The translations under genes and the position numbers were made by a program. This document shows, piece by piece, positions 6,779 through 58,252 of a DNA stretch of 64,000 nt; within the stretch, counting starts at the first letter, position 1, and the number at the start of each line of letters is the position of its first letter. The notes below the pieces were generated by a model that did not search any database, was not told the origin of the DNA, and worked only from the letters and a program-made list of their open reading frames with translations. This DNA comes from Chlorobiota bacterium (GTDB lineage Bacteria; Bacteroidota; Ignavibacteria; Kapaibacteriales; NICIL-2): the NCBI GenBank assembly GCA_026415505.1, contig JAOAGY010000033.1, positions 62,001 to 126,000 on the forward strand, in the 5' to 3' direction.

Positions 6779-8228
6779 TTGCCCGGCGACGCCACAAGTA
6801 ATACACCGGCACTCCAGCCAGCACGATCGCCAAGCCGGGATACGTGTAGCTGGGCTTGGCGATAAGCAGCACAACGGAGATGAACGCTGCCGCGGCGATA
6901 TACAGCGCTGGTAGCAGTGGATAGCCCACCGCTTTGACGGGACGTGGAATGTCGGGTCGCTTCCGACGCAGAATGAAAATCCCGACGACGGTCAACACGT
7001 AAAACAGCAACACTGCGAACACGACGTAATCGAGCAAATCGCCGTAGCGACCCGATAGACAGAGCAAACTCGCCCACACGCCCTGCACCCACAACGCAGT
7101 GGCAGGTGCACCGTATTTGTTGAGACGACCGACGCTGGCAAAAAACAATCCATCGCGCGCCATCGCGTAGTAGCACCGTGCGCCAGCGAGTATCATCCCG
7201 TTGTCGCAGCCGAAGGTCGAAATCATGATGAGCACCGCCATCAAAAGTGCACCGATGCCCGGGAACATCACCTCTGCAGCCGCAGCACCGACACGATCGG
7301 CTGCGGCAAACTGAATCCCTTGCTCGAACGGTGTGGCACCATTCGGTACGCCACGAACGGGCAGCGTTACGATGTATGCAACGTTGACCAGCAGATAGAG
7401 CACCGTCACCATGATCGCGCCGAGTGCCAGTGCCAGCGGAATCGTTCGCTGCGGTCGGACGACCTCGCCAGCAGCGAACGTGATGTTGTTCCACCCGTCG
7501 CTCGAAAACAGCGATCCGACTTGCGCGACCGCGAGAGCGACCACCAGCCCGATACCCGATAGTGCCGTTGCAAGAATGCTTCCGACGGCAGCGATGCGGA
7601 CAGATTGCGCATCCCAGAACGTCGCCAGATTCAGCTCGATCGCCCGATGGTTGTATCCGACGAACGCCAAAACGATGAGCAGGACGAGCGAACCGATCTT
7701 GCCGAACGTGAACACGTTCTGCACGAGCGTACCGATCCGAATGCCGCGCGTGTTGAGCCACGTCAGCCCTATGATGACCGCTATCGCCAGGATATGCGCC
7801 ATGCTGACCGCGATATCGCCGACGCGCACGATGACATTCGACTCGCTGAACACCGGAAACAATACTGCCGTGAACTTGGCAAATGCCACACCCACTGCAG
7901 CAATCGAGCCTGTCTGAATGACCAAGAAAAACGTCCAGCCGTAAAGAAAAGCTACGAGCGGACCGTACGACTCGCGCAGGTAGATGTACTGACCGCCCGC
8001 CTGCGGAAACATGCCGGCAAGCTCGCCGTAGCTGAGTGCACCGGTCAGCGTGATGACGCCTGTAATCGCCCACACAACCAAAAGCCATCCGGCAGAGCCG
8101 ACCGTGCGCGCAATGTCAGCGCTGACGATGAAAATGCCCGAACCGATCATGATGCCTGCGACGACCATCGTCGCATCGAGCAGGGTCACGGTGCGGCGAA
8201 ATTCCCCCGTCGTGTGTTGCTCGTGCAT
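6771..8228 (-). CDS. APC-superfamily amino-acid permease
   Basis: A 485-residue integral membrane transporter with about twelve hydrophobic helices. The N-terminal signature VVAGIMIGSGIFIVSADIAR is the unwound TM1 substrate-binding segment (GSG motif) of APC/LeuT-fold permeases, and FPQAGGQYIYLRESYG follows in the TM2-TM3 region. The overall pattern resembles the L-type (LAT-like) exchangers, but substrate cannot be assigned. It is only 12 bp downstream of a second APC gene on the same strand, so the two are probably co-transcribed. Its 3' end overlaps the upstream convergent gene by 8 bp. Confidence 0.87.
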   Translation of the reverse strand: MHEQHTTGEFRRTVTLLDATMVVAGIMIGSGIFIVSADIARTVGSAGWLLVVWAITGVITLTGALSYGELAGMFPQAGGQYIYLRESYGPLVAFLYGWTFFLVIQTGSIAAVGVAFAKFTAVLFPVFSESNVIVRVGDIAVSMAHILAIAVIIGLTWLNTRGIRIGTLVQNVFTFGKIGSLVLLIVLAFVGYNHRAIELNLATFWDAQSVRIAAVGSILATALSGIGLVVALAVAQVGSLFSSDGWNNITFAAGEVVRPQRTIPLALALGAIMVTVLYLLVNVAYIVTLPVRGVPNGATPFEQGIQFAAADRVGAAAAEVMFPGIGALLMAVLIMISTFGCDNGMILAGARCYYAMARDGLFFASVGRLNKYGAPATALWVQGVWASLLCLSGRYGDLLDYVVFAVLLFYVLTVVGIFILRRKRPDIPRPVKAVGYPLLPALYIAAAAFISVVLLIAKPSYTYPGLAIVLAGVPVYYLWRRRATT

Positions 8229-24750: not shown

Positions 24751-26052
24751 ATGATACCGGCTGAACTTCTCCGCAAAAAACGCGACGGCGGCACGCTCGG
24801 TAGCGAGGAAATTGCATCGCTCGTCGAAGGCATCGTCGCCGGGACAATAACTTCGGCACAAGCCGCTGCATTCTTGATGGCGGCGTGCATTCGTGGACTC
24901 GACATGAACGAAACGGTTGCGCTCACCGAAGCGATGGCTCGGAGCGGCGTGCGTTACGATTGGCGACACATCGGATACGCAGTGGACAAGCACTCGACCG
25001 GCGGAGTCGGCGACAAGCTCTCGCTCCTGGTTGCACCGATCGCTGCTGCTGCTGGCGCAATCGTACCGATGATGAGCGGTCGCGGCTTGGGACACACCGG
25101 GGGGACGGTTGACAAGCTCGAATCCATCGTGGGTTTTCGCGTCGTGATGGACGATGCCGAGATCGAGCGGCAACTCGGCACGCTTGGCGTCGTCATGCTC
25201 GCGCAGAGCGAGCGGCTGGCGCCAGCGGATCGCATTCTCTACGCGCTGCGCGATGAAACCGGTACCGTCGAATCGGTCGGACTGATCACCGCTTCGATTC
25301 TGAGCAAGAAGATCGCCGAAGGAGCGCGCGGACTGGTGCTCGATGTCAAGGTCGGTCGCGGAGCGTTCATGCAGCAGTTCGAGCAAGCGCGGCTTCTGGC
25401 GGGAACACTCGTCGCTGTCGGGCGGCGCGCGGGACTCGATGTTACGGTGCTCTTGACCGACATGGACGATCCGCTCGGACGATCGGCGGGCAACTGGGTC
25501 GAAGTCCTCGAAGCCGAGCGCGCGTTGGCAGATCGAACCACCTGTCCTCACGATATTGTCGAGCTGACGCTGCGTTTGTCGGGTGCGATGTTACAGCTTG
25601 CCGGCGTTGTCTCGACGCTCGACGATGGCATCCGTCGTGCCGACCAAGTTTGGCGTTCCCAGCAAGCACACGACGTGTTCCACCGGATGGTACGGCTGCA
25701 GGGCGGCGATTGGGAAGCTTCGTCGAAGCAGTACGAACGCGTGTCGTCGCTGGTCATCGAAAGTCCGCGCAGCGGCTACATCGCTGGTTTCGCGACCCGG
25801 CAGATTGGCTTGATGCTGGTCGAACTCGGCGCTGGTCGAAAGCGTGCAAGTGATGCTGTCGATCCAGCCGCGGGCGTCGTCTTTGGCGTGCAACGGGGCG
25901 ACCACATCGAAAAAGGAGAACCGCTGGCGACGCTCTATGCCACCGACCGCGCGCGATTGGAAGCATGCGCTCAGATGTTGCTGCGTTGCATCGAGATTGC
26001 CGATGCCCCGCCGCTTCCTCGCCGCTCGCTTGTACTGGAAGAAATCGTGTGA
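24751..26052 (+). CDS. deoA: Thymidine/pyrimidine-nucleoside phosphorylase
   Basis: A 433-residue nucleoside phosphorylase II that splits thymidine or uridine with phosphate, feeding pyrimidine salvage. It opens with the helical domain MIPAELLRKKRDGGTLGSEEI. The phosphate/substrate signature is VDKHSTGGVGDKLSLLVAP, followed by MMSGRGLGHTGGTVDKLESI. GLITASILSKKIAEGARGLVLDVKVGRGAFM is the central conserved block. The C-terminal domain (about 340-433) matches the PYNP type, so the substrate could be thymidine, uridine or both. ATG 24751 begins the conserved domain. The hairpin-repeat array starts 56 bp after its stop. Confidence 0.93.
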   Translation: MIPAELLRKKRDGGTLGSEEIASLVEGIVAGTITSAQAAAFLMAACIRGLDMNETVALTEAMARSGVRYDWRHIGYAVDKHSTGGVGDKLSLLVAPIAAAAGAIVPMMSGRGLGHTGGTVDKLESIVGFRVVMDDAEIERQLGTLGVVMLAQSERLAPADRILYALRDETGTVESVGLITASILSKKIAEGARGLVLDVKVGRGAFMQQFEQARLLAGTLVAVGRRAGLDVTVLLTDMDDPLGRSAGNWVEVLEAERALADRTTCPHDIVELTLRLSGAMLQLAGVVSTLDDGIRRADQVWRSQQAHDVFHRMVRLQGGDWEASSKQYERVSSLVIESPRSGYIAGFATRQIGLMLVELGAGRKRASDAVDPAAGVVFGVQRGDHIEKGEPLATLYATDRARLEACAQMLLRCIEIADAPPLPRRSLVLEEIV

Positions 26053-26148
26053 GAATGCCGTTTCTCGAACCCCTGAGATTGCGCTTCCTGTTTAGGGTTG
26101 GGTTTCCTGTCACCCTGAACGTGTTTCAGGGTCTTGTCGTCTCGCTTT

Positions 26149-26338
26149 GTCACCCTGAACTCGTTTCAGGGTCTTTTGGATGCTGAAACAAGTTCAGCAT
26201 GACGCAAGCGGCGGTAAAGAGATGCCGAAACAAGTTCGGCATGACAGACGGTTATGCATCCACTAAAAGCACGTCACCCTGAACGTGTTTCAGGGTCTTG
26301 TCGTCTCGCTTTGTCACCCTGAACTTGTTTCAGGGTCT
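26149..26338 (+). repeat. 190-bp direct duplication, copy 1 (inside the hairpin array)
   Basis: Holds five hairpin units with spacers. Over the first 124 bases it differs from copy 2 at only three positions, two in one hairpin loop region and one in a spacer; the remaining 66 bases look identical. A 13-bp separator divides it from copy 2. Confidence 0.88.
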
Positions 26339-26351
26339 CGCTCCTCCGCAC

Positions 26352-26541
26352 GTCACCCTGAACTTGCTTCAGGGTCTTTTGGATGCTGAAACAAGTTCAG
26401 CATGACGCAAGCGGCGGTAAAGAGATGCCGAAACAAGTTCGGCATGACAGACGGTTATGCATCCACCAAAAGCACGTCACCCTGAACGTGTTTCAGGGTC
26501 TTGTCGTCTCGCTTTGTCACCCTGAACTTGTTTCAGGGTCT
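26352..26541 (+). repeat. 190-bp direct duplication, copy 2 (inside the hairpin array)
   Basis: Same five-unit order and spacers as copy 1. The 40-bp segment that starts at 26109 (one hairpin plus spacer TGTCGTCTCGCTTT) recurs at 26273 and 26476, so growth by repeated segment duplication is likely. Confidence 0.88.
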
Positions 26542-26563
26542 TGCTCACGCGGCGGCAGCTGCG

Positions 26564-27196
26564 CTACATCGCCTTCTTGACCGCTTCGACGAAATAGCTT
26601 TTCGTGTTGGCGCCGATGATGGTTTGTTTGTGGTTGCCGTTGCGATCGAAAATCAGCGTTGTGGGGATCGCGTTGATCGGCGCGATGATCGTGTAGGCTT
26701 CGGCTATGCTTTTGGTCGAAAGTGTCGGGCTGGGAACGATGTTGATGTACGTGATGCCCTTGTCGGTCGCGAACTTGGTCACTTTCGCCTTTGCGTCCGC
26801 ACCGTCGTCGAGCGATACACCGATGACAACCACGTCGCTTGCCATATCGCGCGAGAGCTCTACGATGTCGGGAATTTCGCGGCGGCATGGAGGACACCAC
26901 GTTGCCCAGAAGTTCAAAAACACGACCTTGCCTTTTGCGTAGTCGGAAAGGCGAACGGTTTTACCGCTGGCATCTTTCCATGTGATGTCGATGAGCTTGC
27001 CTGCTGTCGGTTTGCCGACCGCGATGGCATCGACGATGTAATCAGCCGGACCTGCTGGCGCTGGCGGCGCAGCCTGCGAAGAAAACGATTGCTGGACGCT
27101 CGCCAGTGCAGATTGGTGGAGTTGTCGGTCGCTCGACCGGTTGCACGCACCGATGAGAACCGCCGATGCCAGAGCTATTGCTGCAAATGCTTTCAT
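26564..27196 (-). CDS. TlpA-family thiol-disulfide lipoprotein
   Basis: A 210-residue envelope thioredoxin. The N-terminus MKAFAAIALASAVLIGAC is a lipoprotein signal with C18 as the lipidated cysteine, followed by a flexible Ala/Pro/Ser stretch to about residue 50. The thioredoxin fold has VVFLNFWATWCPPCRREIPDIV with redox cysteines C101 and C104, and the cis-proline region INAIPTTLIFDRNG. TlpA/ResA proteins reduce disulfides outside the cytoplasm, for example in cytochrome c maturation. Its start overlaps the stop of the anti-sigma-like gene as ATGA, so it belongs to the ECF sigma operon. The hairpin array lies 23 bp beyond its stop. Confidence 0.93.
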   Translation of the reverse strand: MKAFAAIALASAVLIGACNRSSDRQLHQSALASVQQSFSSQAAPPAPAGPADYIVDAIAVGKPTAGKLIDITWKDASGKTVRLSDYAKGKVVFLNFWATWCPPCRREIPDIVELSRDMASDVVVIGVSLDDGADAKAKVTKFATDKGITYINIVPSPTLSTKSIAEAYTIIAPINAIPTTLIFDRNGNHKQTIIGANTKSYFVEAVKKAM

Positions 27197-57656: not shown

Positions 57657-58252
57657 GTGCACCATGCCAGCTCCGTCGGCACGTTCGTCGCGACGACGAC
57701 GATCGCCCTGGCTGCCGCACGTTCGATCCAAGTGCGGAGCGTTTCGATCCCAGCGCCATCGAGATTCGTCGTCGGTTCATCGAGCACGACCAGCGGCGGC
57801 GAACCGAGAAATGCCAAAAGCAGCTTCAGACGTTGCACCGTGCCGGAGGAGAGTTCGCCGATTCTCATCGAACGATACCGTGTCAGACTGGATTCGTCGA
57901 GCAGACGCTCGATTTCTTCCGACGACTCTCGAAGTCCGCGACACGCACAGTGAAAGGCGATTTGCTCTGCAACCGTGAGTTCATCGTAGAGTGTCAGCGC
58001 CGGAGCGCAATATCCGCTACGAGCTCGCAACGTGAACGGGTCGTCGGAGGTTTGCCCCTCGCACGAGAGCGTAACTTTTCCAGACGTCGGCACGAGCAAA
58101 CCGGCAACGATGCGCAGCAGCGTGGATTTGCCGCTGCCGTTCCGACCGATGCAGCCAAGCACGGTGCCGCATTCGACAGCGAACGAGACATCGGCGAGCA
58201 CATCGGTGTGTGCGTAGCGATGGCGGATTCGATCCAGAGTGAGCGAGATCAC
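57581..58252 (-). CDS. ABC transporter ATP-binding protein
   Basis: A single ABC ATPase domain of 223 residues: Walker A GRNGSGKST (36-44), a Q-loop-region substitute CAPALTLYDELTV, signature LSSGTVQRL, Walker B PLVVLDEPTTNLD and a switch-region residue near VVATN, where the usual H-loop histidine is not obvious. Length and look resemble CcmA-like exporters or YhaQ-type ATPases. No permease gene is adjacent. It starts at GTG 58252, overlapping the upstream protease stop as GTGA. A long upstream extension of the frame is antisense sequence and not real. Its 3' end overlaps the glycosyltransferase gene by 76 bp. Confidence 0.86.
   Translation of the reverse strand: MISLTLDRIRHRYAHTDVLADVSFAVECGTVLGCIGRNGSGKSTLLRIVAGLLVPTSGKVTLSCEGQTSDDPFTLRARSGYCAPALTLYDELTVAEQIAFHCACRGLRESSEEIERLLDESSLTRYRSMRIGELSSGTVQRLKLLLAFLGSPPLVVLDEPTTNLDGAGIETLRTWIERAAARAIVVVATNVPTELAWCTHLYDVERRIFSHASINARARADQE

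Follow-up and report, generated by a model that had tools for sequence, protein, structure and literature searches.

The BIMEs of E. coli bind gyrase, IHF or Pol I. In starved E. coli cells REPs were the site of 22 of 90 new rearrangement junctions (PMC3161906), and the dRS3/NIME arrays of Neisseria have likewise been proposed as rearrangement sites (PMC3898611, PMC9778887). CGTC-tagged REPs are a known element class, already described from Chlorobi and Bacteroidetes, for which a 2013 survey reported no dedicated transposase (PMC3733652), and their spread and function have been a standing question since that time. Here we analyse an array of short hairpin units in a 64,000-nucleotide stretch (the window) of the genome of a Chlorobiota bacterium, together with related arrays elsewhere in this genome, in its genus and in its phylum. 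We consider it probable that the feature is an array of CGTC-tagged REPs, a selfish, BIME/NIME-like intergenic repeat cluster that acts as a set of recombination sites.

A pattern scan of the window yields eleven exact matches to the unit pattern GTCANNCYGAANNNNNTTCRGNNT, spanning 26109-26539 (to 26541 with the last CT tail), for a chance expectation of 0 and no match in 100 dinucleotide shuffles of the window. Every unit has Watson-Crick pairs at all eight stem positions and a 5-nt loop, and three stem types are present. The C-type stem ACCCTGAA occurs seven times, always on the + strand, in units 1 (26109-26132), 2 (26149-26172), 5 (26273-26296), 6 (26313-26336), 7 (26352-26375), 10 (26476-26499) and 11 (26516-26539); the two T-type stems are both on the - strand and occur twice each, ATGCTGAA in units 3 (26180-26203) and 8 (26383-26406) and ATGCCGAA in units 4 (26222-26245) and 9 (26425-26448). 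The scan bears out the eleven units, with 8-bp stems, 5-nt loops and three paired stem types, that a first-pass annotation of this DNA had reported, and the 190-bp direct duplication with three differences that it described is exact, the blocks 26149-26338 and 26352-26541 mismatching solely at offsets 14, 16 and 116. The match is extendable to 195 nt at the cost of a fourth difference, giving copies at 26149-26343 and 26352-26546, the second 203 bp downstream of the first, and this 203-bp repeat is a local tandem duplication of a multi-unit module. The predicted RNA fold of the array lies far below that of shuffled sequences (z -9.7 and -11.5 for the two strands), and no Rfam family was matched in the window. 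The array is flanked by the gene for thymidine phosphorylase (24751-26052, + strand; PRK05820 485.8 bits, Pfam PF00591/PF07831) and a convergent gene for a TlpA/ResA-like thiol-disulfide protein (26564-27196, - strand; AhpC-TSA and Redoxin domains), both as called here and throughout by our own hexamer-based caller rather than a standard annotation. The first-pass view that this is the only spacious convergent gap does not strictly hold, as our caller leaves a second, of 592 bp (57657-58248), which contains no called gene or REP unit and may hide a missed gene.

Sampling of 1.08 Mb of the 2.29-Mb genome, in stretches partly chosen for holding arrays, gave 239 units in 36 arrays. Each unit opens with a (C/T)GTC tag, followed by an 8-bp stem arm, a loop of 5 nt, the complementary arm and a CT tail. 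The base 5' of GTC is C or T in 231 of the 239 units (CGTC 120, TGTC 111), the loop is CTTGT in 133 and the tail is CTC in 130, CTT in 71 and CCA in 3. Stem position 1 is A-T in 235, position 2 is T-A in 109 (T-type) and C-G in 125 (C-type), and position 5 is T-A in 141, C-G in 82 and mismatched in 16. C-type (ACC..) and T-type (ATG..) units face opposite directions in all 36 arrays, extending to the whole sample the tie between orientation and stem type noted earlier in the window. All 105 pairs of direct neighbours are of the same type and all 98 pairs of inverted neighbours are of different type, although such pairs are non-independent because modules duplicate. The same arrangement is evident outside this genome: in 14 genomes whose stem types are different, inverted neighbours differ in 28 of 29 cases, and 8.7 of the 29 would be expected to be alike under random pairing within each genome. 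The heterodimer rule, to which this genome and the other 14 show next to no exception, places a quantitative constraint on any model of function or mobility. Modelled as RNA, a C/T pair folds into a long imperfect hairpin of -31.9 kcal/mol, much weaker than the hairpin of a same-type pair (-48.3 or -43.9 kcal/mol), which makes it plausible, but unproven, that the rule serves to avoid a long perfect palindrome. An inverted neighbour with the other stem might weaken the palindrome, or it might mark the two ends of a mobile unit.

The paired stem changes in the window had been taken to suggest selection on folding. The window alone offers very few independent events, because its units are duplicates, but the suggestion stands phylum-wide, where 14 perfectly paired stem types are found. 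In 179 units from 36 other genomes, retrieved with a search pattern that put no constraint on stem positions 2 and 3 or on the bases opposite them, these positions pair in 171 and 164 units, compared to 93 and 56 expected. These sequence comparisons support the view that selection maintains the self-pairing of the units.

The window's genome, an assembly of 42 contigs, holds 424 exact-pattern units, and a reversed control pattern has no match in it. Its five sister species within the genus have 0, 6, 10, 9 and 0 units, and such units occur in 96 of the 395 genomes sampled from the phylum, in which the second-highest count is 83. The REP family has exploded in this species and not in its sisters, whose unit counts are lower by a factor of about 40 or more, and, the genus being conserved enough for comparison of single loci, the lineage offers a direct test bed. 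The first-pass proposal of a scattered, mobile palindromic element is supported, and the relatives it mentioned from other bacteria are present in named genomes, the C/T heterodimer being found in Elusimicrobia, Rickettsiales, Treponema, Patescibacteria, Sphingomonadales and WOR-3, and further in Deltaproteobacteria, Brocadiaceae, Nitrospirae, Gastranaerophilales and others. A literature search with the unit sequences returned primer coincidences only. At the window locus both flanking genes are adjacent in all five sisters and no unit lies between them, an empty orthologous site; reading by eye shows another kind of GC-rich hairpin in the gap of four of them, and the fifth (G005) is almost gapless. 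As the sisters keep the gene pair without units, the window array is an addition or replacement in this lineage. No transposition event of units was seen. The tag-to-tag spacers fall into few sequence classes, and since these variants are common to arrays at distant loci they suggest that multi-unit modules are copied from one locus to another.

Arrays also appear to have moved between species. A 3,071-bp segment of the window's genome (G000; L051:8038-11108, contig C13), which carries a single array together with a gene for a T9SS-type secreted protein and the 3' terminus of a peptidase gene, is 100% identical to L059:8066-11136 in the sister G004 and 99.9% identical to a segment in G002 (L063); its flanks are unrelated, and genes within the genus are about 70-77% identical. 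It marks a recent non-homologous transfer whose source was apparently a lineage like the window's species, and we rejected vertical inheritance of the arrays that this genome has in common with G002 and G004, which are carried on this imported segment. In another sister the end of a LysM/SLT gene (L061:20-162, G003 contig C129) is 99% identical to that beside an array on contig C21 of the window's genome, the native G003 copy being 73-78% identical, and this is probably another interspecies transfer. The unit pattern is present in at least 120 stretches of IMG/VR viral contigs, some of them multi-unit (e.g. L217, L223 and L224), making such contigs a possible route for units between hosts. No SbcD above the family cut-off was found in any of the six genus members (G000-G005), whereas 13 of 14 control genomes match; the genus may be more tolerant of palindromes, but an absence that is genus-wide cannot explain expansion in a single species, and loss of SbcCD was rejected as its cause. 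We likewise rejected genomic islands or cassettes between the arrays, as the intervening genes are mostly ordinary chromosomal ones, those between clustered arrays including aldehyde dehydrogenase, carboxyl transferase, dihydroorotate dehydrogenase, methyltransferase and FHIPEP.

The arrays are associated with rearrangement breakpoints. In the comparison labelled REARRANGEMENT, of contig C21 with the sisters G004 and G005, all four arrays in view separate blocks with dispersed map positions, such as 112 kb, 227 kb and 2,063 kb in G004. On the same contig two arrays of opposite orientation (L124:448-813 and 7652-7996) bound a segment whose inversion would restore the sister order of the end genes, and on contig C2 the segment between two opposite-orientation arrays is inverted in comparison with G004 and with G005. 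Taking 1.19 Mb of G004, sampled as stretches, as the reference, gene adjacency is lost at 16 of 22 array gaps and, among array-free gaps no shorter than 50 bp, at 47 of 172 (p=4.7e-5); where both orthologs were found the losses are 8 of 14 and 16 of 141 (p=1.7e-4), an association that is stable over six threshold sets. It carries the idea of REP arrays reshaping chromosomes beyond Neisseria and E. coli. The arrays would on this evidence be recombination-prone DNA, most of those tested sitting at breakpoints, and recombination between inverted repeats may have produced the inverted segments of C2 and C21, each enclosed by a pair of arrays in opposite orientation; we infer that the arrays cause the breaks.

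That the association is instead non-biological, reflecting assembly errors at repeats, or arrays and broken adjacencies that both fall in relaxed intergenic gaps, seems to us unlikely. Misassembly is the foremost concern, and some contig ends do fall inside arrays, two of them sharing exactly 141 bp, as from a break in the assembly graph, and arrays avoid operons, where adjacency is kept. However, the exact 141-bp overlap hints at a long assembly k-mer with which internal arrays should be resolved, the identity of most arrays to any other is limited to about 30-60 bases, and array spacers are distinctive. Adjacency, moreover, survives much more frequently across array-free gaps no shorter than 100 bp (69 of 98, compared to 6 of 22 array gaps; p=4e-4), and the effect holds when controls are drawn from the array-bearing stretches alone (8 of 14 lost versus 6 of 67; p=1.8e-4). 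Other points weigh against arrays as recombination sites: arrays could instead settle by preference in places where gene order was under little selection to begin with; in an assembly of 42 contigs with ends in arrays some junctions are possibly errors; 30-60 identical bases are short for efficient homologous recombination; and the window's own array, one of the six array gaps that keep adjacency, is not at a breakpoint.

The rearrangements could also be one product of an active two-ended mobile system, in which C-type and T-type hairpins are the distinct left and right ends for an as-yet-unknown, non-Y1 single-strand nuclease or recombinase that inserts copies of multi-unit modules at fresh intergenic sites, where it also shuffles the chromosome. 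We think this rather improbable, but if it were true CGTC REPs would have a dedicated mobiliser, of which the strict heterodimer rule would be the signature. The chance is slim that an RNA role maintains the arrays, as bidirectional terminators or 3'-end stabilisers of the flanking transcripts whose spread was selected for that purpose. The unrelated GC-rich hairpin in the same convergent gap of four of the five sisters fits such a role, as do the terminator-like sites of the region (4, compared to 1.1 expected) and the median distance of arrays to 3' ends, 45 bp as opposed to 122 bp to 5' ends. Yet the sisters do without arrays, and 4-16 units in fixed relative orientation are more than a terminator needs. 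Nor does siting favour it: the 36 sampled arrays comprise 28 with both flanking genes in view, 7 at contig edges and one single unit in a called gene, and the 28 divide into 18 tandem, 5 convergent and 5 divergent sites, with no significant convergent enrichment, which runs counter both to a general siting between convergent genes and to the bidirectional terminator, as a general function, that the first-pass annotation had put forward. G-U versus A-C mismatches show no significant strand bias, in a scan that itself favours G-U. As the window array sits where four of five sisters carry an ordinary hairpin, it may nevertheless incidentally end or stabilise transcripts. Very improbable, and rejected here, is mobilisation of the units by a REP-associated tyrosine transposase (RAYT) that would recognise their GTC tag and hairpin and make copies of them, a link that had also been raised at first pass as a thing to check. 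The unit architecture is like that of REP-RAYT systems, the window's genome has one RAYT (NCBIfam REP_Tyr_transpos, 73.6 bits, just below the cut-off of 80), and by our own tally a Y1 transposase is present in 35 of the 41 genomes that have 10 units or more, compared to 235 of 354 others. This RAYT (contig C11), however, is 5.4 kb from the nearest array, with no units at its locus and with its own GTAG palindrome; in the same tally a Y1 match is lacking from six genomes that have 10-59 units; and among the Y1 loci looked at a single one has a unit close by, namely an IS200 copy within a duplicated stretch. The unit-rich genomes without Y1 agree with the 2013 survey, in which no tyrosine transposase was flanked by CGTC units (PMC3733652). 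No mobiliser of the units was found, and the enzyme that spread them need not be a resident RAYT. The GTAG-type palindrome, GTAGGGGCACG...CGTGCCCCTAC, is present inside the RAYT gene (C11:39339-39366) and again at C16:1510-1537, the surroundings of which look like a second RAYT copy missed by the Pfam search; embedded REPs of this RAYT-GTAG sort have been described for TnpA-REP subclass 2.4 (PMC6006769). The IS200-type TnpA in a duplicated stretch, in genome G143 (L155:1731-3229), has identical CGTC units on both sides.

The probable reading, of selfish CGTC-tagged REPs acting as recombination sites, can be set against each of the described systems. CGTC-2 (Di Nocera et al. 2013, PMC3733652) shares with the units here the CGTC/TGTC tag, 8-bp stem, 5-nt loop and A-T first stem pair, the predominance of heterodimers, the intergenic location and the lack of a flanking transposase. 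It differs in its tail, which is mostly CCA rather than the CTC/CTT found here, and since most, not all, CGTC-2 tails fit CCA (PMC3733652) this mismatch lowers the CGTC-2 assignment but not the CGTC one. A-T pairs are almost invariable at CGTC-2 stem positions 1 and 2, whereas C-type units have C-G at position 2; clusters were rare in the CGTC-2 survey and are the norm here; and tail-to-tail pairs are as common as head-to-head, unlike in CGTC-2 (PMC3733652). Neisserial NIMEs, in which dRS3 is CGTC-1, are alike in having several hundred short palindromes per genome, intergenic arrays of at least 200 bp and a proposed role as rearrangement sites (PMC3898611, PMC9778887). A NIME, though, is defined by dRS3, ATTCCC(N8)GGGAAT, flanking RS elements of 50-150 bp, while the arrays here have another stem and loop, spacers of mostly 7-32 bp with no long RS elements between units, and two stem types in fixed relative orientation. 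The E. coli BIMEs, built from Y and Z REPs of GTAG type, are similar as intergenic mosaics of two unit types in alternating orientation, whose REPs are hot spots for new rearrangement junctions (PMC3161906), but their tag, stem and loop are different and no RAYT association was found here. GTAG REP or REPIN-RAYT systems have a GTAG-type tag and a cognate RAYT flanked by repeats, in place of which we find a (C/T)GTC tag and a RAYT locus free of units. The units therefore belong with the CGTC-tagged REPs, nearest to CGTC-2, in an organisation that resembles both BIMEs and NIMEs and falls within the definition of neither.
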